DNA of 34,585 bases from a virus: positions 1-34,585 of IMG/VR virus record IMGVR_UViG_3300015371_000108; one strand, written 5' to 3'. Below are positions 4,472 to 29,268 of this stretch, in pieces. The translations under genes were made by a program, and so were the position numbers. A model generated the notes under the pieces. The model was not told where the DNA came from. It did not search any database and saw nothing but the letters and a program-made list of their open reading frames with translations. The first letter of the stretch is position 1; each line of letters opens with the position of its first letter.

Positions 4472-4485
4472 GCTACAAATGTAGC
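4472..4485. promoter_or_regulatory. Inverted repeat between divergent starts
   Basis: GCTACA-AA-TGTAGC is a perfect 6-bp inverted repeat lying exactly between the LAGLIDADG start (4471, minus) and the helicase start (4492, plus). Only 20 bases separate the two ATGs and neither has a good ribosome site, so promoters must overlap the opposite gene or the mRNAs are leaderless. The repeat is well placed to be an operator for both. Confidence 0.4.
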
Positions 4486-4491
4486 AGATAC

Positions 4492-9742: not shown

Positions 9743-10308
9743 CAGGTAGCTCTCGTTTGCAGGCTTATGAACAACGCTGATCCGACGTTAGGGACTGTCG
9801 CTCCCTGAGCCCTTAGTTGCGTCTCAATGGTGTACTGGCCAGCAGCAGGAAATGCGAAGGCAGCGCCTTCAAATCTGTATACGTTTCTAGCTATCGTCAA
9901 GCTCGGGAGAGCTACAGTGCCAAGTTTAGTACCAAGGCTAAACGTGCCAGACGTTGCTGTTGTAGCTACTGACCTGAGAGCTACTTCTTGAATTCTGTCG
10001 CCTATTGCTACCAAATCTGTGTAAACAGTTATCACGAATCTGAGCTGTCTTGTACGCAAAGATCCGTTGTAGCTATTCGCATGATCAGCGGGATCTAGAC
10101 GGTTGAACTTCGGAGATGACCCGACGACACTTCCCCAAAATCCCGCTGGCTGATACCTATTGCCAGCTACCGTAGAAGAAATCGGGTTGTCAGAGGCCGT
10201 AGATATAGTGACCCAATTCTCGTAACCCGAGTCGATGTAGTCATCTTGGATCTCATTCAGATTCGACGGAGTTGCTGAACTGCCAGGTATGTACCTTGTC
10301 ACGGACAT
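9742..10308 (-). CDS. Tail appendage protein C, second copy, 188 aa
   Basis: Paralogue of the protein at 11593-12156. Shared stretches include SLRTRQLR, TDLVAIGDR, LGTKLGTV, FPAAG and LQTRA. The N-terminus has the cassette pattern (YIPGSSATPSNLNEIQDDY). A DPAD-(H/Y)-NSYNG segment aligns with WDPADYAN of appendage A, which supports common ancestry of A and C. It starts at ATG 10308, two bases after the stop of the first A copy. Probable tail-tip binding protein. Confidence 0.75.
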   Translation of the reverse strand: MSVTRYIPGSSATPSNLNEIQDDYIDSGYENWVTISTASDNPISSTVAGNRYQPAGFWGSVVGSSPKFNRLDPADHANSYNGSLRTRQLRFVITVYTDLVAIGDRIQEVALRSVATTATSGTFSLGTKLGTVALPSLTIARNVYRFEGAAFAFPAAGQYTIETQLRAQGATVPNVGSALFISLQTRAT

Positions 10309-10310
10309 GG

Positions 10311-10955
10311 CTACTCGATCTTTAGCGAGATATCAGCCACAGCATTGCAGTCTGACGAAGCATTTGGTGCGACGTTGCCGTGGTAGATGATCGCGTACTG
10401 GCCAGGCGTCAGAGTGCTGGCGTCAGCCATCTCCACAGACTGCACGGTTGTCGTGTTGGCTCCAGGCGTTGTATGCGTGGTGGTGAATCCCGCGACACTG
10501 CTAGAGGCCATCGTGTATCGACGCATTGTCGAAACAGATCCTCCAGAGAAGCTGCTGACTGCGCGAATGCCGAAAGAGAACGAAACTCCTGGTGCTGTAG
10601 CCCCCAAGCACATGACCACACTACGCAAGCGGAGCTTCAAGACCCTTGTACCGCCAGCTCCTGTGATGAAGTTCGCGTAATCGGCTGGATCCCACCAAAA
10701 GAAATCATTCACAGAGATTACGAACCCTGCTGGAGTCTGGTTGGTTGCTACAGGCAACTCGGCCTTTTGCGACTCGATGTAGTAAGGGTTCATGATGTAA
10801 GCCGACGTAGCAACACGAGACTGTAGATCTCTCACTCGGCCTTCATGAATTGTCGTGTACTCCTGGAAAAGCTCTTCGTAGTCGTCTTGGATGTTGTTGA
10901 ATTCGGTGGTCAGGATCGTGTCGGGAGACTGGCCAAAAGTCGTTACTTTGGTCAT
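10311..10955 (-). CDS. Tail appendage protein A, first copy, 214 aa
   Basis: Same length as the second copy at 8445-9089 and clearly homologous from end to end (VTTFGQSPDTI, NNIQDDYEEL, WDPADYAN, KLRLRSVVMC, GFTTTHTTP, VEMADA, LKIE). The region around residues 40-85 differs most, as expected for a part under receptor-driven selection. It has a 4-base overlap with the B gene upstream. No catalytic motif was seen. Confidence 0.75.
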   Translation of the reverse strand: MTKVTTFGQSPDTILTTEFNNIQDDYEELFQEYTTIHEGRVRDLQSRVATSAYIMNPYYIESQKAELPVATNQTPAGFVISVNDFFWWDPADYANFITGAGGTRVLKLRLRSVVMCLGATAPGVSFSFGIRAVSSFSGGSVSTMRRYTMASSSVAGFTTTHTTPGANTTTVQSVEMADASTLTPGQYAIIYHGNVAPNASSDCNAVADISLKIE

Positions 10956-11593
10956 GATCTATCTCCTGGCAACGTGCACACAGAAGCCATAATGCCAAGA
11001 TCAGAACCAACAGGCGGAGTTGCGTCTACGGAAGCGCAGAGAAGATAGTTACCGTTCTGTGGCACTGGGAAGCTGCTGGAGAACAGCCTCATCATGGAAC
11101 CGGAGACTGGGTTGCCAATACTGAACCCAGTTCCTGGCATCGGAACAGACCCAGCTACCCACGTAACGAATCCCTGCCCGAGATTTTGCACGTGCCCTTG
11201 TCCTACGACGGGGTAAAGCGCCAAGGCCACATTAGCCCCGTATGGAGTCCCGTTGGGGTCCAAACCGAGATTCACTACCACCTCATACATGATTCTCTGC
11301 TTGCGAAATGCAGTGGACTGGTTGTCGATAGCGATCAAATGACCACGACCACCCGAAGAACCGAAAGACCAAGTGCCATCGGTTTCTCGAAATCCCGGGA
11401 CTTGTGACTGAGAAGATAGAGCGACAATTTTCGTCGGCAGCAACCATGAATTTCCAGGGTTGTACCAAGTAGACATCTGGCCTATCCAGATCTTCTTCCG
11501 TCGCGAGATCGCATCGTCGATCTCGGTCTTCATTATCTCAAGATCTCCAGGAGCTAGCGTTCCGCTATTAGCGAATGTCTTGAAACGAGCCAT
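10952..11593 (-). CDS. Tail appendage protein B, first copy, 213 aa
   Basis: Homologous to the protein at 9086-9742 (MARFKTFA, RKKIW, STW, a GAN-A-LYPVVGQGH segment, FPVPQNG, SDLG). The middle section differs, with a Gly/Ser-rich SFGSSGGRGH loop. The start ATG 11593 overlaps the stop of the upstream C gene by one base (TGATG). Likely structural and exposed at the tail tip. Confidence 0.75.
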   Translation of the reverse strand: MARFKTFANSGTLAPGDLEIMKTEIDDAISRRKKIWIGQMSTWYNPGNSWLLPTKIVALSSQSQVPGFRETDGTWSFGSSGGRGHLIAIDNQSTAFRKQRIMYEVVVNLGLDPNGTPYGANVALALYPVVGQGHVQNLGQGFVTWVAGSVPMPGTGFSIGNPVSGSMMRLFSSSFPVPQNGNYLLCASVDATPPVGSDLGIMASVCTLPGDRS

Positions 11594-12156
11594 CAGATAG
11601 CCCTCGTCTGAAGCAGAACTCCTAAAGACAAACCAACATTTGCGGCTGTTGCAGCCTGACCTCTTAGAGCGTGTTCAACTGTATACAGACCAGCAGCCGG
11701 AAAAGTGAAAGGATCTCCGTCGAATCTATAATAAGTCTGAGATTCATCCAGGCTGGGAATAGTTACGGTTCCCAACTTTGTTCCTAATGTATACGTGTTG
11801 ACTGTGGCCGAACTAGCAACTGTGCGAAGCGATACATCCTGAACTCGATCACCGATTGCTACTAAATCTGTTTGACAAATAACGACTAGGCGAAGCTGTC
11901 TTGTGCGAAGTGACCCGTTATAGCTGTTGGGATAATCGGCAGGATCAAGACGACTTGCCATCCACTGACTATCAAAGTCAAGGAATGATGTCGGCGGCGA
12001 GTACATGTTCTGTGCAGCAACAGACGAGAAAACATCTCCGCCGTTCTGACTGAGCGTCACCCACGATTCATAACCAGCGACGATGTAGTCATTCTGGATG
12101 TCGTTCAGCTCTTGAGGCGTGACCTCGCTACCAGGGACGTAAGTCTTTATTGTCAT
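11593..12156 (-). CDS. Tail appendage protein C, first copy, 187 aa
   Basis: Homologous to the protein at 9742-10308. The open frame extends to 12213, but ATG 12156 gives MTIKTYVPGSE, which aligns with the start of the paralogue and forms an ATGA overlap with the preceding gene, so it is the better start. Conserved segments are NDIQNDY, LDPADYPNSYNG, RTRQLR, TDLVAIGDR, LGTKLGTV and LQTRA. First gene of the C-B-A cassette. Confidence 0.75.
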   Translation of the reverse strand: MTIKTYVPGSEVTPQELNDIQNDYIVAGYESWVTLSQNGGDVFSSVAAQNMYSPPTSFLDFDSQWMASRLDPADYPNSYNGSLRTRQLRLVVICQTDLVAIGDRVQDVSLRTVASSATVNTYTLGTKLGTVTIPSLDESQTYYRFDGDPFTFPAAGLYTVEHALRGQAATAANVGLSLGVLLQTRAI

Positions 12157-12728
12157 CGCGCCCAGGCCTTCGTGACGAGATTGAGCGTGTTCGCTCCTTG
12201 GTAGTACTGCCATGTCCCGCCGCTGAAGCCGACTGTCGAGTAGACCGAATAGGCCACGCCCGCTGTGAGTTTGAACATGGCGAACATGTTGTGAGATTCG
12301 TATTGCTGCACTGCTGAGTGCTGAGTGATCGTGTTTGTGGCAGTTTGAAAACCGTCCGCGTCAGGAGTGTTCATCGTCAAGTTCGGCTGCGAGTAATGGT
12401 AGGCAGCATCAGTCTTGTTCAGGATGCCGATATGAAGGTGAGCTTCCCACCAAACATCTATAGGCGGCGTGTACCACGACTGCAATGGAATCGTATTCGC
12501 GGCATTCACCGTCAACTGAGCGCCATTGCCAAGTGCGCGGTAGGCGTTGTTCTGCCCGACGACCTTCTGGACATCGATAAGCCGTCCTTTCACGGCTACG
12601 TCTGCTTCTACTGCGGCAAGGCGGCTCTCAAGCTCTCCGGCCTGACGGCGCTCCAGAGCAGCCGTACGCTGCTCGATGGAGTCCACGTAGCGCATACCGT
12701 CTGGGCGTCGGATGAGCTGGCTCATCAT
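12153..12728 (-). CDS. Minor tail protein with N-terminal coiled coil, 191 aa
   Basis: Residues about 12-50 form a heptad-like helix (SIEQRTAALERRQAGELESRL), suited to trimerisation. A beta-rich C-terminal domain follows (from QLTVNAANTIPLQS to the end), similar in feel to the appendage proteins but without their N-terminal motif. The start ATG 12728 overlaps the previous stop (ATGA) with GGAGGGG just upstream. A role as a short fibre, or as an adaptor linking the hub to the A/B/C appendages, is plausible from position. Confidence 0.7.
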   Translation of the reverse strand: MMSQLIRRPDGMRYVDSIEQRTAALERRQAGELESRLAAVEADVAVKGRLIDVQKVVGQNNAYRALGNGAQLTVNAANTIPLQSWYTPPIDVWWEAHLHIGILNKTDAAYHYSQPNLTMNTPDADGFQTATNTITQHSAVQQYESHNMFAMFKLTAGVAYSVYSTVGFSGGTWQYYQGANTLNLVTKAWAR

Positions 12729-13798
12729 GCCCCTCCAGCGGTCGTCTGAAAGTCGCTCACTTGAGCCCCGCCGGTCTCTGGGAAGGAAACCGTGAAGCTG
12801 AAGATCCGCAAGGGCTGCCTATCGAGCTGGAGCCGTCCCTTCCTGGCTGTCAGCCGAACGAAGTCGCCGATGTTGTAGTCGCGGAAGACTCGTGGTGCAT
12901 TAGGGTTCTCTGGAGACTCGGGCTGCGGCTGGAAGCTGATGATCGGCAGAGGACGGGAGTGGACGAAGATCTCTCCCGCCGCCCAGGCCGTGAGCGTCTC
13001 GGAATTGACGACATCAGAAAGCGACTGTGCTTCCTCGAATAGTCCGTAGTCAGAGAGCGACTCAGCGTCCGCTTCGCTGGCCCGCGCCGCCGACGAGTAC
13101 GCAGTTATGTAGTTGGTGATCGAGCCAGAGTCGGTCTGCCGCGAGACACTGGACACGTTGCCGGGAAGCTGGAAGAGGATGCCGCTGTCCACGCCGATGC
13201 GAGCGTAGATGTTCAGCTCGCGAGTGACAGGATCCACGAGCATGTCGAATCCAGATTCGATCTCGGTCAGCTCATTGAGCGAAGTCAGGATGCCAGACCA
13301 TGGCTGGTAGGTCCGATAGCGGAACTGCGTGCTGTCGTAAATACCAGGGAAGACGTAAGAAGGAGCACCAGCGGCATACGCGTCGTTGTTAGTCCGCGTG
13401 AGCAGATCCAAAGCGATCTCACCGGCATCAACCCCGTCGTACTGGATTGGATTGCCCGCGTTCCACTCCGGTCGAACCACGCGCTTGTCGAGTGTCTGGA
13501 GCCATCCAACACAGCCGATCTGCATCGTGGCGCTCTGATTGTTGATCTGCTCCTGGACATTCCAGACTGGGCCAGACCAAATCGTCTCCCCATCCACACT
13601 GACGATCACGCAAGTGCGAACTTCCTCGACGATCTCGGCCATTCCGTCGTCCAGCGGCAGCGTGCAGGAGAAGGCACCAGCCCTATTGAGCGAAAGCTGG
13701 AGCGACCTATTCCTAGCCTGCGTGAGTTCCCCTAGTCCCGAAAGATCGTAGGAATCTGCCAGCTCGAACTTGTAGTTGCTAAGACCACTATCCGTCAT
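12725..13798 (-). CDS. Tail hub protein, siphovirus Gp37-like, 357 aa
   Basis: Resembles the ReqiPepy6 Gp37-like family of actinophage minor tail proteins, which correspond to the baseplate hub (gp27-like) at the tail tip. Typical features are the N-terminal SLQLSLNRAGAFSCTLPLDD, VDGETIWSGPVWNV, GWLQTLDKRVVRP, the middle WSGILTSLNELTEIESGFDM, and the C-terminal YNIGDFVRLTARKG. The length is normal for the family. It starts at ATG 13798 overlapping the previous stop (ATGA). It should form the ring that receives the Dit-like protein above and the appendages below. Confidence 0.8.
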   Translation of the reverse strand: MTDSGLSNYKFELADSYDLSGLGELTQARNRSLQLSLNRAGAFSCTLPLDDGMAEIVEEVRTCVIVSVDGETIWSGPVWNVQEQINNQSATMQIGCVGWLQTLDKRVVRPEWNAGNPIQYDGVDAGEIALDLLTRTNNDAYAAGAPSYVFPGIYDSTQFRYRTYQPWSGILTSLNELTEIESGFDMLVDPVTRELNIYARIGVDSGILFQLPGNVSSVSRQTDSGSITNYITAYSSAARASEADAESLSDYGLFEEAQSLSDVVNSETLTAWAAGEIFVHSRPLPIISFQPQPESPENPNAPRVFRDYNIGDFVRLTARKGRLQLDRQPLRIFSFTVSFPETGGAQVSDFQTTAGGA

Positions 13799-15285
13799 CG
13801 CCCGGCGTGCCTCCAGCTCACCGTGGCGTTGCCTCCGATGGCGTCAGCACCGGTCGCGATCACGTTGTCGCCCTTCTCCAGAAGCAGCCAGTCGTTCTCA
13901 GGGCCTGTGAGGTCGTAGCGGTTGTTGCCAAGACCGTCCACCACCGTACGCAAACGAGAATCGATGGTCAGAGACTCGCCGGTCAGCAGGCTGCCGGAGA
14001 TAACGACTCTCCTGCCATTGGTCAAATTGATCACGGCAGGGTTCGTGAGTGGACCAGTCAGGAGGACGTTGGCGTGAGTGCGGCTGTATCCCAAGTTCTT
14101 CGCGGTACCCAAGGTGACGCCGAACACGAGCCCACCGGATCCTGGGAACGGAATGCCTGTACCGCCTCCTGGGAAAGTCAGCGCAGCGGTTGCTACGGCA
14201 CCTGAGATAGATGTAGGCATCCGCGAAAGCAGCACCGCGCTCGACGACCGCAACGAGATCATGAAGGCCTTGCGGTAGTAGAGGCCATCGAAGCTCTCAT
14301 CGCCTTCAACCTTCGCGAACTTCTGACAATCAGGAACCATGAAGTCGCCAACGTTCATTCCCCTGAAGTCCACGTACTCGTAGCGCCAGTCAGTGCCGCC
14401 TGGATTGATCCGTAGTCCCATGTTGCCGGTGATGCCGGTGCCCAGTGCGGTTATGTCCGTGCTCGTCAGCGTGTGCGTTACGGTTTGAAGAGCTGTGCCT
14501 CCGAGAGCAGGGTCTGTGTTCCACAGCTCGGCCGTGACGACGTTGCCTTCGACCTTCGCTCGGATCCAGTAGGTGGTAGCGGTGCTGAGCGCCTGAGAGA
14601 CCGTGGTCTTGGCTGCCAGGGTGCCGCCGATGACCGTGAAGATGCCGAACTGCGTACTCGTGTTTCGCGCGCCTATGGCGAGGTAGTCCGTATCGGTCTT
14701 GCGCCGAAGTCGGATCATCGACTCGTGCGTGGTCACAGAAGCGCCGGTCGTGAACTTGACCTCTGCCCAACCGTCAACGTATGTGCGGTAGGGCATGTAG
14801 AGCGTCTTCAAGCCGGTCGAAGAAGGAACGATCTGCCCGTTCGACACAGCGAGACCAGAACCCAAATCAACCACGTAGTCCTGCATGACGGCTGCGGAAG
14901 AGCCGCCCTCGAAGTCGTCGCGCCAATCCATCCATCTCAGCAGAAGATCGTCTTCGGTGAGATCGTCAACCGCTGCCTTGAGCTGCGCCCACATGTGGCG
15001 CATGTAGTTCAAGTTGCCTGCCTGAACGTAGCCAGTGAGACCGATGGTGCGACCTCCGTAGCGACTGCCGAAGGGAGTCTCTCCGTCGGCGTCCGGATTG
15101 GGCTCGCGGCTGTCGCGAACATCGGAATCATCGAGACCAGTAACTCTGGTCAGCCGGTAGTGGTCGGGCCAACGACGGTCGTTGAGTGTCAGTCCCTTGT
15201 ACTCGAAAACGCACTCCAGGCCACGCGGGGCGATGAGAGCCGTGTCGGCAATCGTCTTGAAATCCGTCGCCCTCATCGTTGGCAT
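13795..15285 (-). CDS. Distal tail (Dit-like) protein with beta-sandwich insertion, 496 aa
   Basis: Position directly after the tape measure and before the hub is that of the distal tail protein. The N-terminal part (GLTLNDRRWPDHYRLTRVTG, GGRTIGLTGYVQAGN, MWAQLKAAV) fits the Sipho_tail family. Residues about 135-320 form an inserted beta-sandwich resembling concanavalin/LamG domains (WAEVKFTTGA, DYLAIGARN, YWIRAKVEGNVVTAELW, GNMGLRI). The C-terminal part is another beta domain (GRRVVISGSLLTGESLTIDS, WRHAGR). The insertion may bind cell-surface carbohydrate. Start is ATG 15285, immediately after the tape measure stop. Confidence 0.75.
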   Translation of the reverse strand: MPTMRATDFKTIADTALIAPRGLECVFEYKGLTLNDRRWPDHYRLTRVTGLDDSDVRDSREPNPDADGETPFGSRYGGRTIGLTGYVQAGNLNYMRHMWAQLKAAVDDLTEDDLLLRWMDWRDDFEGGSSAAVMQDYVVDLGSGLAVSNGQIVPSSTGLKTLYMPYRTYVDGWAEVKFTTGASVTTHESMIRLRRKTDTDYLAIGARNTSTQFGIFTVIGGTLAAKTTVSQALSTATTYWIRAKVEGNVVTAELWNTDPALGGTALQTVTHTLTSTDITALGTGITGNMGLRINPGGTDWRYEYVDFRGMNVGDFMVPDCQKFAKVEGDESFDGLYYRKAFMISLRSSSAVLLSRMPTSISGAVATAALTFPGGGTGIPFPGSGGLVFGVTLGTAKNLGYSRTHANVLLTGPLTNPAVINLTNGRRVVISGSLLTGESLTIDSRLRTVVDGLGNNRYDLTGPENDWLLLEKGDNVIATGADAIGGNATVSWRHAGR

Positions 15286-18200
15286 CTAGGTGGCCCTCCG
15301 CTGGCTGCGCTTGAACTCGACGACCTCGAACGCGTGTCCGATGTCTACGTCCTTCTCCACATTATGAAGGTGCACGTGCGTGTGCTCCTCGGAACCCGGC
15401 GCTAGCTGGCCGCGACGCGGGTTCGTGATGATCTCGCCAGCGTGCAGGTAGGCAGGGCCGTCGTAGGGCATTACGCCACCAGCCTGGAAGTGGGGAAGGT
15501 ACTGGTAGAGCGGCAGACCGTTCCCGTTGAAGAGCGCCATCCGTAGGTTCTGCCAGAGCGATGACGAAAAGGACTGCCCGACAGGGTTGTTGATCTTGTT
15601 GAGCTGATCGGTGTTATCGAGGATCGCCAGCGTGTTGTCCAGCATCGACTGGATGAGCGCTTGGAAGGCGGTGCGCTCAGTCTCGCCCATGGTCGCTTCG
15701 AGCGCCGCGATTGCCGGGCCAAGCTCAGCGAGCTTGGTAGCGAAGCTGGTCGGGCTCTGCTGGAAGGCATTAGCGAGCTGCGTGAGGATCGATCCGCCAG
15801 CGCCGCTGAACTCGCCAGCTCCAGAGCGCACGTTGTTGGCGATCTCCGTGGCGGCGATCTTGAGCTGCTCAGCGGACTGCTGGAGGAACCTCTGAATCTG
15901 CCCGAATTGAGTGGACCCTGTGAGCTGCCCGAGGCGCTCGATGATGGTCTGGGCAGAACCGATGAGGCCGGTGGAACGCTCTGCCCGGCCGGTGATGATC
16001 TCGGTCGCTGTCTGGCGGTAGGTGAAGACCAGCTCGCGGTTGGACTGCTCCAACTCCTGGATCGACGTGTTCAGCTCGTCGATGCGCTCCTGTGTCTCCT
16101 TCGCGAGACCGACGTTTCCCTGAGCCCTAGCAACAGCCAAAACGCGAGACAGCTCGGTGATCTCGCCACGAGCGTAGGAGACGCGCTGCGCGCCGATGAC
16201 CTGCTGCTGAGATATGGCACCGAGTCTGTTGCCAGCTCGATCTGCGACTGAGGCAAGACGTTCCCTGATGTCCAACTGGCGGCTTGCGTTGGCGTAACGA
16301 CCCTCGATGTTGTCGAAGACCGCCTTCAGGTTCGCGGCTGTCTGCTCGAAGATCGAAGCTGTCACGTCGCGGAGCTGATCAGCCAGCGCGTCTGCGATGC
16401 CCTGCCAACGGGAGTCACGTCGGGCAAGGGCGGAGGCCTGAGCGAAACGGCGCGACAGGACAGCCTGCTGAGCCTTCAGGTTGGCCAGTTGCAGCTCGCC
16501 GATCCTACGAGCAGCGTCCTCATTGCCGAGCGCCGCGAAGATGCGGTCGTACATGTCGAGACCAGACGCCTGCTGAGTGGAGGCACGCAGCGCCTTCTCC
16601 GTGTTGGCCTCAAAGCGATCCTGGAGTGCCTTGTAGAGATTCTCCTGGTTCTCAGCGAATCTTGCATCCAGCGACGACAGCTCGTTCTGGAAGCGGGTGC
16701 GAGCTGCGATGAGAGTGCGGTACCGGTCCTCCTCGGCCTTGCTGACGCCGCCCTTCTTGATCCTGTTGATCTGGGCCTGGACTGCGTTGAGCCCCTGACG
16801 AGCCTCAGCGCGCGCTGTACGGATCGCGGTGCCCAGATCCTCGTACATGTCCACCGTGCGGTTGGCAACCTGCACAGCGTCCGAGAGAGGGCCACCACGA
16901 CGACGCGTGAGTCGAGAGCCAACTCGGCGGAAGCCCTGCTGAGCGAGCGCCAGAGAAGTCTCCATGCGCGTCCCGAGGCGGTCGAGAGCTTCGCCCATCT
17001 GATCGAGGTATCCACCATCGTCAGTGATGTTGCGGATGTTCTTGACGAACTTGTCGATCCGCGCCCCGAGCTTGCCCTTCTTGCCGATCTGGTTGATGGC
17101 CTTGAAGACCTCATCCATCTCTCGCTCAAGACCGCTGACGCTAGTCGGGTCGATGACCGGAGCTGTGTAGCCGCGACCTGCACCCAGACCGCCCTTGACC
17201 GCGTTAGCCAGCAGACGAGCGCGCTGACGGTAGCCTTCAGCGTCCATGTGGATGCCATCGGGTCCGACGGCGATGCCACGCGTGTTGACGAGCCGCACAT
17301 TGTCGTGCTCCGCAGCGAACTCACGCAGGACTCTGTTCTTCGCCGCAGCGCCAGGACCGCGAACCGTGGAGAGGACAAGCTCCTGATCGTCACGCAGAAG
17401 CCTGTAGGCGCGCTTGAGGTTCTTCTCCAGCACGCTGGCATGAGCATCATTCGTGCCAACATCGAAGATGACCTCGCGGTACGCCTTCTTGAGCTTCTGC
17501 TTGAGGATGTCGATGGCCTGATCGGAGTTTCTGCCCTCGCGAGCGTTCGAGACGAGACCATCAACCATCCGCTTCAGGGCACGCTGGATCCCGACGCCGA
17601 GAGAGTCACCGATGTGAAGCACCTCGCCACCGTCAGCGAACGACTCCTTGGCAGTTCCGCTGAATCCCAGCAGACGCTTGATCGCTGAGGTGGAGACGCC
17701 CATCGCTGCTGCGAGCTTGAGCTGCTGGCTCTTGTTGAGGATCCATTCGCCAGCGTGGGCGATGATGCTCATCGGCTCGCCCTGGCCACGACCCGGAAGC
17801 TCGCCGCCTCGTGCGTAGCCAGCCTCTCCGCCGACGAATCCTCCGGCGGCCCGACGCCTACCGAAGCGCTCCAGAGCCGTCTGGGCGGGACTGTAGCGGT
17901 CTCCCACCTCGTTCGCACCCATCCGCTCGTATCGGAAGGCGATGGCGTCCACGGCCTCCTTGAGCGTGTCAGCGCCACGAATGGCAGCAGCGGCTGCGCT
18001 CTCGGGACCGTTCAGCTCATAGAGGATGTAATCGAGCTGCGTCTTGAGGCTTGTCCAGTTCTGGTTGCGGTCTGCCGCGAAGTTCTTCAGGCCTACCAGA
18101 CGACCGCCGAGCCACTGGGCGAGACCGGTCGCGCCGCTGGCCCCGTTGACGATGGTCGTAGAGAGACCCGACTCCTGCGAGAGATTGCCGACCCACGCTG

Positions 18201-21200
18201 CCGCCTGAGCATCAGTGAAACCAGCGGACCGGAAGAAGTTGAAGACCTGCTGAGCCCGTGGACCGTCACCCAGTTCTGCGACGCCGTGAAGACCGAGCGC
18301 ATCGGTGCCACCACCGAACTTGATGGCCAGCTTGTCGATGAGCTTGTTGGCCGCGTTGCGCGCCTTGTTGACCATCTTCGAGGCCAATTCCTTCAGCGGA
18401 CCGACGCCCTTGAATTGGGCCCGGTCCACATGGTCTACATCGAAGCTGTCGCTGTCAGTGACGCCAGCCAGCAGCTTGGCAACAGACAAGCCTCGCAGCG
18501 AGCGCGAGATCAGCTTGGCCATGAGCGGGCCGTTGAACGCGAAGGCGTCCTTCATGGCGAGATGGACGTGATCCTGATGCCCACCGATTGGATAGCCGTT
18601 GAACTGATCCCTGTCGCGCCAGATGAGCTGCTTGACGACCTGCGGAATCCTGGTCTTGACGAAGGCGTTCAGTGCATCCTCGCCAGCGGTCAGGACACCG
18701 TTGCCCATGTCAAGAGCGCGGTGGTAGAAGTGATCGGAGACGTTGCCAGAGCTGGTCATCCGGTTGTGGCCGTCGTAGCCCGTGAAGTACGTCATGCCGA
18801 ACTTCTTCTTGGCCATGTTCCAGACGGGTGTGAAGCCCTCGCCTGAATGGCCGGGGCCGGTAAAACCACCGGTCGCGAAGCCTGGCGAATGCGTGCCTGC
18901 ATGGAGAGCACTGGTGCTCTTGAAGAGACCGTCGAGTGTCGTGCCGTACTGATTCCACAGCGCCGAGTTGACGACCTTCTGGTGGGCCCAGTTCAGGACC
19001 GCCTCGCCACGCCCCAGCCACGTCGGGATCGCATCCTCACCACGCTCTCCGGAGCGGCCGACCATGCCGCCTCCGGCGTGACCACGGGGACGGCGGAGAG
19101 AGACGGCGACCGGCTTGGCATCGAAGGCGTTGAGTGACTCGTTGGTCGCGTTAGTGACATAGCGCAGACCCTGGTAGACGGCTTGCTGAACGTCATCGAA
19201 GGAGCGGTCAAAGAACCTAGCGATGCGATTCGTGCTCTGATCAGCCTCGTCCTCCATGTTGTTCAGACGCGAGCTGAAGACGTTCTGGATCTGCGTCATC
19301 AACCGCGACACGTTGATGCGGAGGACGTTGACCCTATTCTCGATCATCGTGGAGCCTCTGCGGGCAGACGCAGCAACGTCCTCCCACATGCCGCCCCAAG
19401 CCTTCTTGAAGGACTCCAGATTGCCGACGAAGTTGACACCGATGGCCGCCGGTGCTGCGACTGCGCCACCCTCGGCGTAGCGACCTGCCTGACCGCTCTG
19501 GCCACCGCCTCCGAGCAGACGGCGGATGGCGAAGATCACGCCATGGCCACCAGCGTTCTGGACCTCCTGCTTGGTCAGGACGTGCTCGCCTGGCGTCAGC
19601 AGGGCGGGAACAGAATCCGTATCGCCCACTCCGGGGATCGGACCACCGCTGGCCTTCAGCAGCGAGAGCGGGTTGATGTTGCGTCCGCCGACCTCGATGC
19701 GACCGCTCAGCGCCCCGGCGATGGCGTCCTTCACAGCATCAGCGCCTGAGACGATCCCTCGGGCGATTCCCTTGATGATCCGCAGGCCGAAATCTTCCAG
19801 ATCGCCACCGATGTCGTGGATGAAGTCTCCGACGGCGTTGATGGCGCTCCGGAAACCGCGAATGAGCAGACGCGGCAGAGACTTGAGGCCATCCAAGATG
19901 CCTTCAATGATGCTCTTGGCGAGTGCTACGGCTGGCTTGCCGATGTAGTCGATCACCGCGTTCATGCCCCGGCGGAAGAGCCGGATGAAAAAGCCGCCGA
20001 TGCCGGAGAGAACTCCCCAAAGCGCGTCGAAGATGCCCTGAGCGATCTTCCGGACTCCCCTGAGTGCCAGTCGCCCGGCCTCGTCGAAGTCACCTCTGAA
20101 GACGGCCATGATCGCGCTCAAGATGTCGAGCACGCCGCCGAAGACCCGGATGACGCCTCTGATCGTGTTGCCGACCATGATCCCGAAGGAGTGGATGGCC
20201 TCGATCAATACGTCGCCGATAATGCTGGCGATGGTGGTGAGGATGTCCAGGAAGACGCCGAGCAGACCGGCGTTGCCGCCCCGGAACTGTGCCATGAAGT
20301 CTTCGATGCTCTCCTTCAGATCATCGAATCCCGGCTTGACGATCTTGAAGATGTCGCGAAACGTCCTGATGACCTGCCGCCAGATATCGTCGAGCTTCCC
20401 AGCGCGCTGGAGGAGAATCACCAGCACTGCGGCCAGAGCAATCCAGGGCCCGGCGATGACGAGTCGTGCTCGTGAGAAGAGGCCAGCAGTTCGAGTGGCC
20501 TGTGAGCCGAGTCGTTCGGTGAGGGTGGTCGTCTCTGCCAGACGCCCGATCAGGAAGCCGATGGGCCGAGTGATGCCGCCGAAGATCGCGAACGCACGGC
20601 CGAGCACAGACATCCCGAACGCAGTCGCCAGCAGCGCCGAAGCGATTCGCGCGATACCCGGATGCGCCTTGATGATGTCGCCCAGCGCAGCGGTTGCGCT
20701 GCCCAGCGCCCGAGCGAAGTTTCCGATGGCCGGGATGAGCACCTGAGCCAGGAACGCCGCGAAGCCTTCGACAGATCGCAGCCCCTGAGTGCCGAAGGTC
20801 TTGTTGATCTCGTTCGCGATGGACTCGAACACTGGAGCCATCGCCTCGATCATCTTGCGAGACAGATCGAAGAAGCGCTGGAAGAACTCGTTGAGCTTCG
20901 TCCCAGGAGTCTCGATGGCGTCTGCCCAGCCACGGATGGCGTCGGCCATGTCGCGCACGAGCTTGAGACCGTTCTGAGCGCCACCGCCCGGACCTGCCAG
21001 CGCAGCGAAGAGGCGGATGACCTGCCAGATCAGATCGCCCCAGGCCTTCAGGTGGACGACGCCCTCCTTGAAGAAGTCCTGAAGGGCACCGGACTTTCTG
21101 CCCTGCTCGAAGAAGTCGGAGACGCGATCCGAGATGTCGCGTACCCAGAGGATGATCTGTCGGAAGGCCGGGCCCGCTGCCTCAGCGAGATCAGCGAAGG

Positions 21201-23481
21201 CCTTGCCCATGTTGATCGCGATGTCAGTCAGCGGAGCGAGGTTGCGGCGAGCTTGCTCGACGATCCTCAGTAGCTGCCCAATGGCTGCGTCGCTTGTGAA
21301 GGCATCGACAATGCGGTTGAACTGTGCCGCCATCGTCGTGGCAAGCCCGCGCGCTGCGTTGCGGATCCGTGGATCCTGAAGCAGCTCTATGACGCGGTTG
21401 ATCGTCCGCGTGAAGGCGTTTATGAGCGGCTCGGTGGCGAACTGGGCGAAGTCGCGCCATACGGTCTGAAGCCGGAGGATGGCCTGGTAGAGACGACGCT
21501 CAGCCCCCGAGAGCTGAGACATGAGGTAGTTGAGCTTGCCAGCGGCGGCTGTTACGCCTTCCTGAGCCTGTGTGGCTGAACGATTCGCGCCATCAAGGCT
21601 CCTCTGGGCCTCTCTGGCGGCCCTCTGAGCGTCTCGGAGCTGCTCATTGGCAGCAGCGACCTCAGGAGAGCCTCCAGGACCGGCAGCGAGCCTTGAAGCG
21701 ACCTCACGACGATTGGCCTGGAGTTCTGCTGTCGCCTCATCACGGCGAACGAAGGCGCGCGGAAGAGCGCTCGTGTCGCCGGTGCGAGTGGCGCGGCGAA
21801 TCGCGCTCTCGGACTCCTCGACACTGAGCGCCAAACCACGCTGGGCGAGAATCAGCTCGTTGAGCTTGTCGATTCCCTCCTGGCGTGCATCGTTGACATT
21901 CTGCTGAGCCTCACTAACTCGGCGTCCAGCATCAGCCAGCCGTTCCTCTGCTCCTCTGACCTGATCGACTGCACTGGCCTGTTGCCGAGCTGCCTGAGCG
22001 CCCTGGTAGCTCTGCTGCTGCTGGAGAAGATTCGCCTGCTGTACTGCATTCATCACCGAAGCGATGCGCTGAGCTGCTGCGGCAAGGAGACCAAGCGGCC
22101 CGAGCGCCTGTGCGATGCCCGCAACGAGCGAACCACCTACCGCAGCACCGGCCATTCCGGCAGAAGACGCCAACGAGAATAGAGCGCCGCCAGCAGCAGA
22201 CGCGAGCAGGAAGAGCTGATTGAAGAAGGTCGCGATACCGAGAGACATCAGCCCTCGGAGGAAGTTGTCGAAGGAGGAGATCGTCTGTGATGATCCGTGG
22301 AAGCCCTCACTGGCCGCCCTCAGCGAGCCACGCAGAAGACCGAGCCTCTGACTGGCGTGGTCGGAGTCCCTGGCCACTGTCCTCATGGCAGCGCTGGCAG
22401 CAGCAACCTTGGCGAAATCGACATCCATATCGACGTTGATCTCGATGTCCTTGCCGAGCAGCTCCTTCATCGCCATGACCTCGGCCGCGTGAGCCGTCAT
22501 GGCACCCGAGTCGAGATCGATGTTGGCCTCGATGTGGTCGAACAGAGCGCGGAGACCGGCGGCGACTTCCTGAGCCTCAGCACGAGCCTGCTTCGCGTCG
22601 AAGTCGAGCTGGGCCTTGATGACCAGATCGCCGCGTTCGGCGGCGCGGCGACGCTCTTCCTCGATGCGCTGAATGCGCTGAATCTGCTCCAGGTACTTCT
22701 TGCCGAGCTGAAGCTCCTGCTCCTCCTTGCGCATGCGATCCTCGACCGCCTTGCGCCTGTCAGCCTCGATCCTCAGAACATCTCGAAGATCAGCCTCGCG
22801 ACGACGCGCTGCCTCGGACTCGGAACGGTTGATGATGTCGAGCGTCTTCTGGGGCTCTCGGCGACGCTCCTCCTCTTCCTTCTGCATCGCGCGACGCTCT
22901 TCCTCGCGGAATCGCTGCCGAGCACGAGCCTGCTGGGTGAACTCCTGCATCTGACGCGCGTGAGCGCGCTGGCGCTCTTGGTCGGCCTTGGCTTCCGCCT
23001 GAGCGTTCCTGTCGGCCTCAGCTCGGACCATCTTGAGCGCTTCGACCTGAGTCCTGGCATCTGCAAGAGCGCGGGCAGAACGACGCTTGGCAGCGGCATC
23101 GCCCTTGCCCATCGATTCGACTAGAGCGTCCTCTGCTGAACGAAGCTGCTGTAGCGCCTGAACCCGCTGAGCGTCACTGGCATTGGCGTCGCCCTGCGCA
23201 CGCGCGTATCGCGAGGCCGCCTGCTCCAGCTTGACCATCGCATTGACCTGATCCTCGTTGGAGGCTTTGATCTCCTTCTGCCTCCGCAGAAGCTCCGCCT
23301 GCGACGAATTGATCCTCCGAGTCATGTTCTCGAAGGACTGCCCGACCCTCTCGTTCTGCTGCTGCTGCTCGTTCTGGAGCCGCTGAAGCTCCTTCTGGTT
23401 CTGGAGCAGCTTCCCGAACGCCTCGGACGTGTTGTCCTTGGCGTTGAGAATTATGTCAATGAGGTACCGGGCGTCTGCCAT
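15286..23481 (-). CDS. Tape measure protein with M15-like, tail-lysozyme and SGNH hydrolase domains, 2731 aa
   Basis: Sets tail length and is expected to travel into the host envelope during DNA entry. Residues 1-330 are a highly charged coiled coil. Hydrophobic stretches lie at about 405-475, 945-1035 and 1080-1130. An M15/VldE-like metallopeptidase domain spans about 1545-1660 (H1584 and D1591 in SDH-x6-D, H1638 and H1640 in DHVHL). A phage tail lysozyme domain spans about 1735-1870 (E1770 in SQESG, then GATGLAQW). An SGNH/GDSL hydrolase domain spans about 1952-2105 (S1960 in IGDSLGVG, N2011 in VGTND, D2075 and H2078 in DGIH). Residues 2110-2650 are coiled coil again. Four short GE motifs (near 1299, 1493, 1912 and 2683) flank the enzyme blocks. 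The start overlaps the chaperone stop (TAATG). Very long for the family, implying a long tail. Confidence 0.93.
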   Translation of the reverse strand: MADARYLIDIILNAKDNTSEAFGKLLQNQKELQRLQNEQQQQNERVGQSFENMTRRINSSQAELLRRQKEIKASNEDQVNAMVKLEQAASRYARAQGDANASDAQRVQALQQLRSAEDALVESMGKGDAAAKRRSARALADARTQVEALKMVRAEADRNAQAEAKADQERQRAHARQMQEFTQQARARQRFREEERRAMQKEEEERRREPQKTLDIINRSESEAARRREADLRDVLRIEADRRKAVEDRMRKEEQELQLGKKYLEQIQRIQRIEEERRRAAERGDLVIKAQLDFDAKQARAEAQEVAAGLRALFDHIEANIDLDSGAMTAHAAEVMAMKELLGKDIEINVDMDVDFAKVAAASAAMRTVARDSDHASQRLGLLRGSLRAASEGFHGSSQTISSFDNFLRGLMSLGIATFFNQLFLLASAAGGALFSLASSAGMAGAAVGGSLVAGIAQALGPLGLLAAAAQRIASVMNAVQQANLLQQQQSYQGAQAARQQASAVDQVRGAEERLADAGRRVSEAQQNVNDARQEGIDKLNELILAQRGLALSVEESESAIRRATRTGDTSALPRAFVRRDEATAELQANRREVASRLAAGPGGSPEVAAANEQLRDAQRAAREAQRSLDGANRSATQAQEGVTAAAGKLNYLMSQLSGAERRLYQAILRLQTVWRDFAQFATEPLINAFTRTINRVIELLQDPRIRNAARGLATTMAAQFNRIVDAFTSDAAIGQLLRIVEQARRNLAPLTDIAINMGKAFADLAEAAGPAFRQIILWVRDISDRVSDFFEQGRKSGALQDFFKEGVVHLKAWGDLIWQVIRLFAALAGPGGGAQNGLKLVRDMADAIRGWADAIETPGTKLNEFFQRFFDLSRKMIEAMAPVFESIANEINKTFGTQGLRSVEGFAAFLAQVLIPAIGNFARALGSATAALGDIIKAHPGIARIASALLATAFGMSVLGRAFAIFGGITRPIGFLIGRLAETTTLTERLGSQATRTAGLFSRARLVIAGPWIALAAVLVILLQRAGKLDDIWRQVIRTFRDIFKIVKPGFDDLKESIEDFMAQFRGGNAGLLGVFLDILTTIASIIGDVLIEAIHSFGIMVGNTIRGVIRVFGGVLDILSAIMAVFRGDFDEAGRLALRGVRKIAQGIFDALWGVLSGIGGFFIRLFRRGMNAVIDYIGKPAVALAKSIIEGILDGLKSLPRLLIRGFRSAINAVGDFIHDIGGDLEDFGLRIIKGIARGIVSGADAVKDAIAGALSGRIEVGGRNINPLSLLKASGGPIPGVGDTDSVPALLTPGEHVLTKQEVQNAGGHGVIFAIRRLLGGGGQSGQAGRYAEGGAVAAPAAIGVNFVGNLESFKKAWGGMWEDVAASARRGSTMIENRVNVLRINVSRLMTQIQNVFSSRLNNMEDEADQSTNRIARFFDRSFDDVQQAVYQGLRYVTNATNESLNAFDAKPVAVSLRRPRGHAGGGMVGRSGERGEDAIPTWLGRGEAVLNWAHQKVVNSALWNQYGTTLDGLFKSTSALHAGTHSPGFATGGFTGPGHSGEGFTPVWNMAKKKFGMTYFTGYDGHNRMTSSGNVSDHFYHRALDMGNGVLTAGEDALNAFVKTRIPQVVKQLIWRDRDQFNGYPIGGHQDHVHLAMKDAFAFNGPLMAKLISRSLRGLSVAKLLAGVTDSDSFDVDHVDRAQFKGVGPLKELASKMVNKARNAANKLIDKLAIKFGGGTDALGLHGVAELGDGPRAQQVFNFFRSAGFTDAQAAAWVGNLSQESGLSTTIVNGASGATGLAQWLGGRLVGLKNFAADRNQNWTSLKTQLDYILYELNGPESAAAAAIRGADTLKEAVDAIAFRYERMGANEVGDRYSPAQTALERFGRRRAAGGFVGGEAGYARGGELPGRGQGEPMSIIAHAGEWILNKSQQLKLAAAMGVSTSAIKRLLGFSGTAKESFADGGEVLHIGDSLGVGIQRALKRMVDGLVSNAREGRNSDQAIDILKQKLKKAYREVIFDVGTNDAHASVLEKNLKRAYRLLRDDQELVLSTVRGPGAAAKNRVLREFAAEHDNVRLVNTRGIAVGPDGIHMDAEGYRQRARLLANAVKGGLGAGRGYTAPVIDPTSVSGLEREMDEVFKAINQIGKKGKLGARIDKFVKNIRNITDDGGYLDQMGEALDRLGTRMETSLALAQQGFRRVGSRLTRRRGGPLSDAVQVANRTVDMYEDLGTAIRTARAEARQGLNAVQAQINRIKKGGVSKAEEDRYRTLIAARTRFQNELSSLDARFAENQENLYKALQDRFEANTEKALRASTQQASGLDMYDRIFAALGNEDAARRIGELQLANLKAQQAVLSRRFAQASALARRDSRWQGIADALADQLRDVTASIFEQTAANLKAVFDNIEGRYANASRQLDIRERLASVADRAGNRLGAISQQQVIGAQRVSYARGEITELSRVLAVARAQGNVGLAKETQERIDELNTSIQELEQSNRELVFTYRQTATEIITGRAERSTGLIGSAQTIIERLGQLTGSTQFGQIQRFLQQSAEQLKIAATEIANNVRSGAGEFSGAGGSILTQLANAFQQSPTSFATKLAELGPAIAALEATMGETERTAFQALIQSMLDNTLAILDNTDQLNKINNPVGQSFSSSLWQNLRMALFNGNGLPLYQYLPHFQAGGVMPYDGPAYLHAGEIITNPRRGQLAPGSEEHTHVHLHNVEKDVDIGHAFEVVEFKRSQRRAT

Positions 23482-24628
23482 TAGGTCTGGTCGATGTACT
23501 TCGAGAAGTCGTTCTCTTGCTGGATCATCTCGTTGACGGTTTCGGTGTCACCGTCAGGCAGAACTTCCGCCAACCGCTCCTTGGCTTTCGCCACTGGAGC
23601 CCAGAAGGGATTCGACTCGTCGATCTCTTCTTCCGGTTCTGCGTTGCCCAGTATCTGGTCAACGGCCTGTTGAAAGTTCTCTTCGATGCTCTCGATTGCT
23701 TCTTGCCGAGTCCCCTTGTCGTCGTTCATTCCGTCGTTTGCCCAGAAGGCGGCGATGATGCTTTCCTTCCGGCGCTCAAGCGTCTCGATGACCTGACGCT
23801 TGATGAATGCGCCGTAGAAGACCTCGAATCGCCGCCATGGCCATTCGAGGATCTCTTCTACGGTTTCGGAGTGGTGTGCGGTGTATTGCTCCAGTGCCTC
23901 GATGGCTGTTACTTGCGGTCCGCTCGGAGCTGGTTGAGCTTCGCCACGCGGTTCTGAAGCGCCTGAAGGCGCTCCCCGAAAAAAGACGCCAGCGCGTCGT
24001 AGTTCTGGTCGAGGAACGTCTCGATGATCTGCATGCCCTGGTCGTCGGAGAGACCGCCCTCGTCGGCGGGCAGATTCATCAGCTCACGGACAGTGCCACG
24101 GTCGTAGTCCGGCACGTTGAGCCAGATCATGTAGGAGTCCACGAGGAACTCCGGAGCGGCTGCGACGAGCTTGGAGATCGCCTGCACGAAGGTGTCAGCG
24201 TCGCGGAAATCCTGCGCGCGAAGCTGCCCTGCTCGGTTCGGAGCCGAGAAGAGGCTGGCGAGGCTCATGCCCTGGGGCCCGGAGAGCGCCTTGTCGAGCA
24301 CGTTGCCCACGAGGGAGAACCACTGCATCTTGCCGATGAAGCTCAGCGGCTTCTGCACGAAGGTGCGCTCCGTGTCGGGCGGCCCGATGGTCCAGACGTG
24401 CGGCTCGGCGTTCGGGACGATGGCGTCCAGAACGTCCTGCTGGTTCTGACGCGCGTTGTCTCCCCCTACGTTGTCGCCTCGGCCGATCTCACCGCCGTCA
24501 GACTCGGTGGCCTCGGCGGGCACAGGCTGCTGATCGAAGACCGCCGTGCTGGCGTCCTCTCCGGGCTTGAAGTCGATCTCGGTCTCTACGGGAGACTGAT
24601 CGAAATCCGTGTGCTGCTCAGTGGGCAT
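23481..24628 (-). CDS. Tail assembly chaperone, long form made by -1 frameshift, 382 aa
   Basis: The equivalent of lambda gpGT. Translation starts at ATG 24628, reads 217 codons to the TTC ending at 23978, slips back one base on TTTTTTC (23978-23984), and continues 165 codons to the TAA at 23481-23483. The -1 frame has no stop anywhere between the slip site and 23483. It reads as a sensible protein: TAIEALEQY, VEEILEWPWRRFEVFYGAF, QVIETLERRKESI, then the frame whose first ATG is at 23729. That ATG at 23729 has no clear ribosome site, so the 82-aa frame on its own is unlikely to be a gene. The long form should bridge the tape measure and tail tube subunits. The frameshift is inferred from sequence only. 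Confidence 0.82.
23909..24628 (-). CDS. Tail assembly chaperone, short form, 239 aa
   Basis: The equivalent of lambda gpG: lies between the tail tube gene region and the tape measure. ATG 24628 is chosen because GAAGGAGG ends five bases upstream; the longer open frame to 24751 is only read-through from the preceding gene. The first 70 residues are acidic and probably disordered. The rest is helical (FIGKMQWFSLVGNVLDKAL, QAISKLVAAAPEFLVDSY, GMQIIETFLDQNYDALASFFGERL), as is usual for these chaperones. It ends at TAA 23909, 23 codons after the slippery site. Most ribosomes should make this form; a minority make the 382-aa form. Confidence 0.8.
   Translation of the reverse strand: MPTEQHTDFDQSPVETEIDFKPGEDASTAVFDQQPVPAEATESDGGEIGRGDNVGGDNARQNQQDVLDAIVPNAEPHVWTIGPPDTERTFVQKPLSFIGKMQWFSLVGNVLDKALSGPQGMSLASLFSAPNRAGQLRAQDFRDADTFVQAISKLVAAAPEFLVDSYMIWLNVPDYDRGTVRELMNLPADEGGLSDDQGMQIIETFLDQNYDALASFFGERLQALQNRVAKLNQLRADRK
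23956..23984 (-). promoter_or_regulatory. Programmed -1 frameshift site with 3' stem-loop
   Basis: The heptamer T TTT TTC (23984-23978 on the minus strand) matches X XXY YYZ in the reading frame of the chaperone gene. Two bases later GGAGCGCC pairs with GGCGCTTC (8 bp, one G-T) around a TTCA loop. Slippery heptamer, correct frame, stimulatory stem and an open -1 frame all agree. Confidence 0.85.
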
Positions 24629-24657
24629 GTGCCCTCCTTCGTGGTCGTGCGGTCCCA

Positions 24658-25134
24658 TTAGATGCCCGCGATCTTGCGGGCGATGATCGTGCGAGCCAGA
24701 TCCTGGGCGTTCTCGAACCACGCTCGCTGTGGCTCCTGCCCTCTCACCCAAGCGGCAAAGACCTGCTGCCCGCGATCTGTGAACGCGAGAACGTTGCCGT
24801 TGGACGGGAAGATTCCGTTGGTCGGGTGCTCCCTGTTGAAGAGGCCTGTGCCTTCGATGACGAACTCGGCATGTGGTGCCTGAGACTCATCGACTCCGAC
24901 GTGCACCTCGTAATAACCGCCGCCACCGGCTGCGCCAGGGCTGTACGAGATTTCCCCGACGTTGATGGCACGGAACAGGGCACCTCCCTCGTACGGGACG
25001 TGAGTGCCCATGTAGGAGCCAGCCTCTTCGGCAGCCTCCTTCATCGCGTCGTGGATGTCCTCCCGGAACTCCTTGATCGCCCGGAAGCGAATCTCGAAGT
25101 CGGTCAGACCTTCGGAGCGGATCTCGTATTCCAT
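24658..25134 (-). CDS. HK97 gp10-like neck / tail-completion protein, 158 aa
   Basis: The pattern fits the HK97-gp10 family: an N-terminal helix (DFEIRFRAIKEFREDIHDAM, EAAEEAGSYMGTHVPYEGGAL), then beta strands with GYYEVHVGVD, HAEFVIEGTGLF near the middle, and a C-terminal AWFENAQDLARTIIARKI. In this family the helix and the EGTG-like loop take part in joining head and tail. ATG 25134 is chosen because GGGGAGG lies about six bases upstream; the open frame continues far upstream but antisense-like and through a terminator. The gene sits after the major tail protein, whereas relatives usually precede it. Confidence 0.7.
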   Translation of the reverse strand: MEYEIRSEGLTDFEIRFRAIKEFREDIHDAMKEAAEEAGSYMGTHVPYEGGALFRAINVGEISYSPGAAGGGGYYEVHVGVDESQAPHAEFVIEGTGLFNREHPTNGIFPSNGNVLAFTDRGQQVFAAWVRGQEPQRAWFENAQDLARTIIARKIAGI

Positions 25135-28209: not shown

Positions 28210-29268
28210 CTACGCGGCGACCGTGAGGGTGGCGAAGCACTCCGGATGGATGATCCGGACCATCTTCGCCGCAGCCTCGCGGAGGTAGCGGTTCTTGGTC
28301 ATGTGGTCGAGGATGACCTCGCTCGACGGGCCCATCTGGATCGCGGTGTCGTTGTACGCGACGCCGATCTCCACCTGGCCGTTGAGCGTGTCAGCGATGT
28401 TCTCGCCCTCGATCTGGTAGTCGGTCGTGACGACGACCTTGTTGACCGGCAGGTAGCGCGTGTGCGCCGCCTCGTCACGGGCCGCGCCCGACGCCATGGG
28501 CCGGAAGCCCGCGTCGTGCACGATGAACTGCGTGCCCTCTGCCAGCAGCGACGCCACCTGCTCCAGCGAGGCGCGGAACGCCTGACCGGCAGGGACGTTG
28601 AAGTACGTCTTGATCGACGCGCTGTTGAGCAGGTTCTTCGCCGCCGTCGAGGTGAGGTGGATCCTCGTCCCGAGGTGACCGGAGTCGTCGGCGATCTTCT
28701 GCTGGATGGCCTCCAGGTCCGCCACCGGGTCCGAAGACGCCGTGGTGGTCCAGGGGGTCGCGGGGGTGACCAGATGGCCCGAGAGCCAGCCGTAGTCGAT
28801 GACGAGCTGGCTGTTCGTGCGCGGGTAGGTGACCGTGAGCGTGCCGCTCACGAACGCCTGCCACCGCATCCACTCCGTCAGCCGCTCCAGGCGGCGGCGG
28901 AGAATGCGGCCACGCTCAACCACGTCGAGGCCCTCCGAGTTGCGGATGTTCTCGTCCGAGGACTGGAGACGGATCCACTGCTCCGAGTTGATGCGGTGCA
29001 TCTCCTCAAGCTGGACCATCTCGATGAGCGCCTCTCGACGCTCGGTGACCGGCATCTCGACGAGCGCAGGCATCGCGTTCGGTGCCTTGAACTGGCCCAT
29101 GCCGAACGAGTAGGTCCGTCCGACATCCATCCGCGCCATGCGAGCCGCGAGATTCACCTGAGGGGCGATCTGCTGACCCAAGAACGGGGTCTGCTCCAGA
29201 GCGGTGTCCACTTCCTCGTTGACGAGGGAGGTGAGCACTGCCTGGTCGTAGATATCAAATCCGGGCAT
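28210..29268 (-). CDS. Major capsid protein, lambda gpE family, 352 aa
   Basis: The main shell subunit. Length and pattern fit the gpE family: N-terminal TSLVNEEVDTALEQTPFLGQ, VGRTYSFGMGQFKAPNA, a long helix with RRRLERLTEWMRWQAFVSGTL, the domain with DLEAIQQKIADDSGHLGTRIHLTS, and the C-terminal YLREAAAKMVRIIHPECFATLTV. The neighbouring gpD-like decoration gene upstream supports the lambda-type assignment. ATG 29268 follows AAAGGGGGT. Confidence 0.88.
   Translation of the reverse strand: MPGFDIYDQAVLTSLVNEEVDTALEQTPFLGQQIAPQVNLAARMARMDVGRTYSFGMGQFKAPNAMPALVEMPVTERREALIEMVQLEEMHRINSEQWIRLQSSDENIRNSEGLDVVERGRILRRRLERLTEWMRWQAFVSGTLTVTYPRTNSQLVIDYGWLSGHLVTPATPWTTTASSDPVADLEAIQQKIADDSGHLGTRIHLTSTAAKNLLNSASIKTYFNVPAGQAFRASLEQVASLLAEGTQFIVHDAGFRPMASGAARDEAAHTRYLPVNKVVVTTDYQIEGENIADTLNGQVEIGVAYNDTAIQMGPSSEVILDHMTKNRYLREAAAKMVRIIHPECFATLTVAA

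Follow-up and report, generated by a model that had tools for sequence, protein, structure and literature searches.

The DNA analysed here, referred to as the window, is the 34,585-base virus record IMGVR_UViG_3300015371_000108, which has a G+C content of 60% and comes from an uncharacterised soil phage. No tRNA genes were found in the 34,585 bases, and the window is probably a fragment of a larger phage genome. Its major capsid protein (28210-29268, minus strand) had no match among 50,697 phage records, which points to an undescribed phage lineage. The same protein is 75% identical to the capsid protein of a 124-kb contig (L007), a close relative that has its gene order in common with the window contig.

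A long open reading frame (23481..15286, minus strand), with an ATG start and no internal stops, encodes a tape measure protein (TMP) of 2731 aa. It matches phrog_6090 (E=9e-42) and phrog_4197 (E=3e-40), both of which are tail length tape measure families. This homology, the Dit-like and Tal-like genes directly downstream and the synteny with the L007 contig identify the protein. In its C-terminal third lie an mt3/VldE-type peptidase block, a Phage_lysozyme2 domain and an SGNH-like block, in that order (blocks 1 to 3). An initial annotation had proposed three different enzyme-like domains in a row within one TMP. That order was recovered in the 2731-aa reading frame, and all nine residues singled out as catalytic (H1584, D1591, H1638, H1640, E1770, S1960, N2011, D2075 and H2078) are where they had been placed. 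The gene and its features are as follows.

15286..23481, minus: tape measure protein of 2731 aa, matched by PHROG tape measure families across residues 190-1698
19576..19647, minus: first GG motif, GGPIPG..DSVPALLTPGEHVL, residues 1279-1302
18994..19074, minus: second GG motif, GG...GRGEAVL, residues 1470-1496, just ahead of the mt3 block
18547..18861, minus: block 1, mt3/VldE-type LAS zinc L,D-endopeptidase-like block, residues ~1541-1645; from profiles to VldE and TM4 mt3
17863..18258, minus: block 2, Phage_lysozyme2 (PF18013), residues 1742-1873, with E1770; from Pfam, AlphaFold2 and Foldseek
17653..17817, minus: linker motif GG..P..G.P..I.AHAxEWILN (EW motif), residues 1889-1943; conserved in the TMPs compared
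17191..17634, minus: block 3, SGNH-hydrolase-like block, residues ~1950-2097 (S1960, N2011, D2075, H2078); from PF13472, motif order and OatA kinship
15424..15480, minus: fourth GG motif, GG...AGEIIT, near the C terminus, residues 2668-2686
13795..15285, minus: distal tail (Dit-like) protein, directly downstream of the TMP; PF22768 (E=2.5e-7) and phrog_33
12725..13798, minus: Tal-like minor tail protein; phrog_1885 (E=4e-19) and PF06605 (E=5e-7, just under the cut-off)

An assembly chimera was considered as the source of the three-block fusion and dismissed. Over 10,670 bp spanning all three enzyme blocks, the window and a further contig, L002, agree at 99.991% identity, and an artefact of assembly is therefore unlikely.

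Several other genes of the window are recorded here as separate observations. Upstream of the TMP (23481-24751, minus strand), the overlapping reading frames 23481-23729, whose frame is open further, and 23909-24751 form a candidate frameshifted pair of tail assembly chaperones. A block of three genes is present in tandem duplicate at 8445-12213 on the minus strand, the pairs being 11593-12213/9742-10308 (56% identical), 10952-11593/9086-9742 (44%) and 10311-10955/8445-9089 (52%). The duplicated genes had no family match and are probably tail or fibre proteins. At the end of the window (3-1907, minus strand) a protein of at least 635 aa, which continues past the window end, begins like a signal peptide and contains a PKD domain and possibly a right-handed beta helix. 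Two further minus-strand genes encode an RNase H-like protein (3234-3704; RVT_3, E=7e-9) and a protein with a weak LAGLIDADG endonuclease match (4136-4510).

The lysozyme and peptidase-like domains

Block 2 is clearly a Phage_lysozyme2 domain with a lysozyme-like fold. It matches PF18013 at E=4.6e-31 and 108 bits (cut-off 28.2) over positions 2-140 of the 140 in the profile, and a six-frame search likewise recovers it. The glutamate of its GN..xES motif, E1770, is invariant across six diverse sequences. Structure prediction of this block, which the initial annotation had suggested as a check, gave a confident model (AlphaFold2 with 34 rows; pLDDT mostly 93-98), and the best solved match of that model in Foldseek was phi29 gp13, in its lysozyme-like domain (E=2.6e-4).

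Against Pfam, block 1 gave nothing significant (Extensin-like_C at E=0.35, chance level). Because no match rose above the Pfam M15 cut-off, it was not filed under M15. A six-sequence profile of the block, however, reached PDB entries 9FLH-9FLN, the VldE/Spr1875 crystal structures, at E=2.9e-17, and residues 773-887 of TM4 gp17 at E=4.6e-22 in a set of five proteins. Our reading of the PDB entries as VldE combines the profile match with the LysM name of the entries. The match to gp17 includes W853, the residue altered by Piuri and Hatfull (PMC1796659), which aligns in an IW motif with W1621, and block 1 is therefore taken to be the known motif 3 (mt3). Six further key residues of the block likewise find their counterparts. 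In VldE numbering, the zinc ligands correspond as H1584=H301, D1591=D308 and H1640=H375, and the further essential residues as H1635=H370, D1637=D372 and H1638=H373. An alanine change at each of H370, D372 and H373 inactivates VldE (PMC11667670). On the basis of profile and zinc site, block 1 is thus assigned to the TM4 motif 3/VldE MT3 family (LAS, clan MD) and not to generic M15. In the AlphaFold2 run on residues 1530-2110 (34 rows), in which the lysozyme was the one part modelled well, the model of this block was poor, and MAFFT had misplaced three of the mt3 rows.

Motif-3 proteins degrade peptidoglycan, and the mt3 of TM4 aids infection of stationary-phase cells, yet is non-essential (PMC1796659). 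For VldE, six structures have been reported of the MT3 domain, which was named after the TM4 motif, and L,D-endopeptidase activity on the stem peptide has been demonstrated (PMC11667670). A structure match named only "LysM domain-containing protein" had prompted a reading of block 1 as a Zn-muramidase (GH184). It was rejected because VldE MT3 is given as an L,D-endopeptidase (PMC11667670) and the GH184 paper mentions neither VldE nor M15.

The family of block 1 is widespread among phages. Searched through the copy in IdentityCrisis, it turned up in 727 records, from phages of Mycobacterium, Gordonia, Streptomyces, Corynebacterium and others, and the annotated proteins among the matches listed were mostly TMPs, with some endolysins. 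tblastn found block 1 weakly in the TMPs of Mycobacterium phages, and genome scans with the M15 alignment found no relative. Since the kin of both the TMP core and block 1 are mostly in actinobacterial phages, our best guess is that the host is an actinobacterium, which we hold to be reasonably likely.

An SGNH-like block and the sister tape measures

Block 3 matches PF13472 at E=5.5e-5 and 24.2 bits, with SASA and Lipase_GDSL ranking behind. This score is under the Pfam cut-off of 32.9, and we therefore call the block SGNH-like and do not file it as PF13472. All four SGNH blocks are present and in order: GDS (S1960), REGR, GTND (N2011) and D2075/H2078. The strict order GDS..G[STA]ND..D[GAS]xH arose in none of 20,000 shuffled versions of the protein, and among the 6,361 open reading frames of the loci compared it occurs only in the window TMP, with its copies, and in a relative from Azospira. 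This relative, encoded on an Azospira plasmid and itself SGNH-like, is 30% identical to block 3 over 148 aa. In PDB, phmmer with block 3 retrieved an acetylxylan-esterase-like protein and the catalytic domain of OatA. When one relative was added the matches were again mostly SGNH proteins, every E-value being weak. AlphaFold2, run on the single sequence, gave a poor model with a pLDDT of 46, which did not confirm the SGNH fold. Foldseek of this low-pLDDT model placed OatA at the highest probabilities (prob 0.80-0.87, E=0.26-0.43), a result that is not independent of the sequence match, as Foldseek uses sequence too. Judged by its motifs and matches, block 3 is probably an SGNH domain; the solved SGNH kin nearest to it comprise both acyltransferases and esterases.

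The initial annotation was thus right in kind for all three assignments (M15/VldE-like, tail lysozyme and SGNH), block 1 being specifically of the TM4 motif-3 family. The HMM searches it called for bore it out with PF18013 and VldE, while Pfam M15 went unmatched and PF13472 stayed under its cut-off.

Genome scans with the SGNH block found no relative, viral scans with single blocks returned only the near-identical contig L002, and tblastn gave no phage match and one fair match in plasmids. NCBIfam added nothing. Nine sister TMPs from IMG/VR were recovered by an alignment of the lysozyme, by the 58-aa linker motif behind the enzymes and by the M15 scan. They have ~2300-2700 aa, and their cores are 28-41% identical to that of the window TMP. 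Their modules, assigned by in-house profiles, Pfam and motifs, are as follows.

L039: mt3, then lysozyme2
L119: mt3, then SLT
L118: mt3-like LAS, then SLT
L124: LAS motif, then SLT (LAS from the H..D and HxH motifs only)
L040 and L122: LAS motif, then lysozyme2 (LAS from the H..D and HxH motifs only)
L038: NlpC/P60, then lysozyme2
L007: mt3, then a double-psi-barrel-looking block (by eye)
L125 (L125:4358-12499), residues ~1580-1860: double-psi-barrel-looking block, then LAS, the module order being reversed

These pairs indicate that two wall-enzyme modules are usual in this group: a peptidase and usually a glycan cutter, with the families swapped among relatives. The EW motif closes the two-enzyme cassette in 10 of the 10 TMPs compared, and in the sisters it reads GG..PG..G.PVPI.AHAxEWILN. 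The double-psi-barrel-looking block of L125 is 40% identical to its L007 counterpart, and a PDB search with it found no match. In a further TMP (L123:3209-10627) the EW motif occurs twice, at residues 1450 and 2263, with repeats in between, and no recognised wall enzyme was found within the stretch read.

What sets the window TMP apart lies behind this cassette. The stretch between the EW motif and the conserved segment after it measures ~26-103 aa in the relatives and ~170-190 aa in the window TMP, and block 3 is a clean insertion of about 90-150 aa relative to the sister TMPs. It starts right behind an FADGGEV motif that is also found in L007. The block is absent from the sister TMPs, whose reading frames are complete, although most of their contigs are fragments. 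PF13472, searched over eleven viral records (the contigs of ten relatives and L002), matched in L002 alone. Among the TMPs compared, a third enzyme-like block is found only in the window phage, in two near-identical contigs. What the sequence comparison establishes is the order of the blocks, the family to which blocks 1 and 2 each belong, the SGNH motifs of block 3 and the absence of SGNH from the TMPs of relatives.

Some of these same data could indicate that block 3 is a degenerate domain, or a sugar-binding or linker module gained by recombination, and that only blocks 1 and 2 matter. The weak PF13472 score and the pLDDT of 46 are in line with this, as are the lack of relatives in viral and genome scans beyond the near-identical contig and the absence of the block from the sister TMPs. 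However, an otherwise divergent domain has retained the four SGNH motif positions, including Ser, Asp and His, and we consider a spare module unlikely.

A possible three-enzyme entry protein

The reading we prefer, and regard as fairly probable, is that the TMP carries a wall cassette, made of an mt3/VldE-type endopeptidase and a Phage_lysozyme2 domain, and that just behind it an accessory SGNH-type esterase has been inserted, which would remove lysozyme-blocking acyl groups. We infer the activities of all three blocks, the substrate of the SGNH block and the timing of events. At ejection the TMP would leave the tail tube, and its enzyme domains would fold or become exposed in the host wall. 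There the mt3/VldE-type domain would cut peptide and the Phage_lysozyme2 domain glycan, opening a local hole for the tail tip or the DNA. The SGNH block would strip ester-linked acyl groups, such as 6-O-acetyl on MurNAc, so that the adjoining lysozyme could work on modified walls. The C terminus of a siphophage TMP is located at the tail tip. If this also applies here, the SGNH block would come out first, before the lysozyme and the peptidase. Such an exit fits the idea of an ordered entry machine put forward in the initial annotation, and it is not evidence for ordering; a fixed order of action found no support.

Acetylation at O-6 of MurNAc blocks lysozyme, and the SGNH protein Ape1 is a true O-acetyl-peptidoglycan esterase (PMC6174289). 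More tentatively, the window TMP may contain a built-in de-O-acetylase, a three-step entry enzyme in which the SGNH block unblocks the peptidoglycan for the attached lysozyme and L,D-endopeptidase, which then open modified or resting walls.

A different target for block 3 was also weighed, namely another acylated polymer such as teichoic or teichuronic acid, capsule, or arabinogalactan/mycolate esters. SGNH domains of phage tails usually belong to receptor-binding or depolymerase proteins that act on surface polysaccharide (PMC5601072, PMC9862828), and the mt3 block and the TMP core have their kin chiefly among Mycobacterium, Gordonia, Streptomyces and Corynebacterium phages. A site inside the TMP and beside a lysozyme nevertheless speaks more for a substrate buried in the wall than for one at the surface, and the closest solved kin act on the O-acetyl groups of peptidoglycan or the acetyl groups of xylan, which makes another polymer rather improbable. 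The mycolic-type or arabinogalactan target suggested earlier is unsupported, the nearest solved SGNH kin being the peptidoglycan O-acetyltransferase OatA and acetyl-esterases.

The esterase-assisted cassette also presumes that block 1 is active, which is likely but not assured from its sequence, as the alignment finds no counterpart in place for VldE R294, the presumed transition-state arginine. This arginine is presumed catalytic and does not define the mt3/VldE family by sequence. Where VldE and TM4 have their GYR/GWR motif, L039 has GFDGHSKMTTSNN and the window has GYDGHNRMTSSGN, the latter within a loop ~6 residues longer. The earlier claim that all catalytic motifs are intact is accordingly a little too strong. 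That block 1 is only a structural domain that binds zinc, or an inactive LAS domain, is nonetheless very unlikely, because the six essential residues (zinc ligands and three others) are kept in four of the four mt3 blocks of the family that were aligned, which argues for function, and R1574 in the longer loop, or the lysine of L039, might take the place of the arginine.

If this esterase acts on O-acetyl peptidoglycan, the TMP would give the phage a means against a lysozyme shield that is common in bacteria. More generally, this phage group equips its tape measures with a plug-in pair of enzymes, usually one for peptide and one for glycan, whose families are swapped among relatives, and the window phage may have gained an eraser of wall modifications on top of that pair.

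Several known systems come close to this arrangement. TM4 gp17 resembles block 1 in domain family, kind of position within a TMP and IW motif, whereas in its 1229 aa mt3 is the sole wall motif reported, with neither a lysozyme2 nor an SGNH block. VldE (Spr1875 of Streptococcus pneumoniae; PDB 9FLH and others) shares the domain family and the six essential residues, but it is a cellular protein with LysM, and block 1 lacks both its R294 and its long zinc-zipper loop. Among solved structures, the fold closest to block 2 is that of the lysozyme-like domain in the phi29 tail-knob enzyme gp13, which also couples this domain to a peptidase; gp13 is a separate short-tail protein and not a TMP. SPbeta CwlP is the tape measure of a prophage. 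It is described, where PMC3314691 cites it, as having two peptidoglycan hydrolase domains, a muramidase and a DD-endopeptidase; these are of other families than those of the window TMP, and no esterase is included. Barnyard combines motifs 1 and 2, that is, two wall enzymes in one TMP (PMC1796659), while in 506 enterococcal phages and prophages a transglycosylase was the only TMP wall enzyme found (PMC10194240). The sister TMPs have the cassette with its EW end as in the window TMP, but no SGNH block, and their slots often hold other enzyme families.

For block 3 the comparison leads outside phages. By sequence, and by a weak fold match, the C-terminal SGNH domain of OatA (6VJP/6WN9) is one of the solved domains closest to it, although OatA is an acyltransferase, non-phage and only distantly similar. 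Ape1, also non-phage, is relevant through its described activity, and OatA and Ape1 both act on the O-acetyl groups of peptidoglycan (PMC6174289). Published phage SGNH domains belong to tail fibres, receptor-binding proteins and depolymerases, and a word-based search of a partial literature collection found no report of one in a TMP. The initial annotation had set three wall domains against the well-known one. The third domain does stand out, but the surplus is one domain and not two, because two-enzyme TMPs are known and are usual among the relatives. A pair of wall enzymes within a single TMP, or a protein like one, is thus already familiar, and with its added SGNH-like third the window TMP is an unusual combination of ordinary parts.
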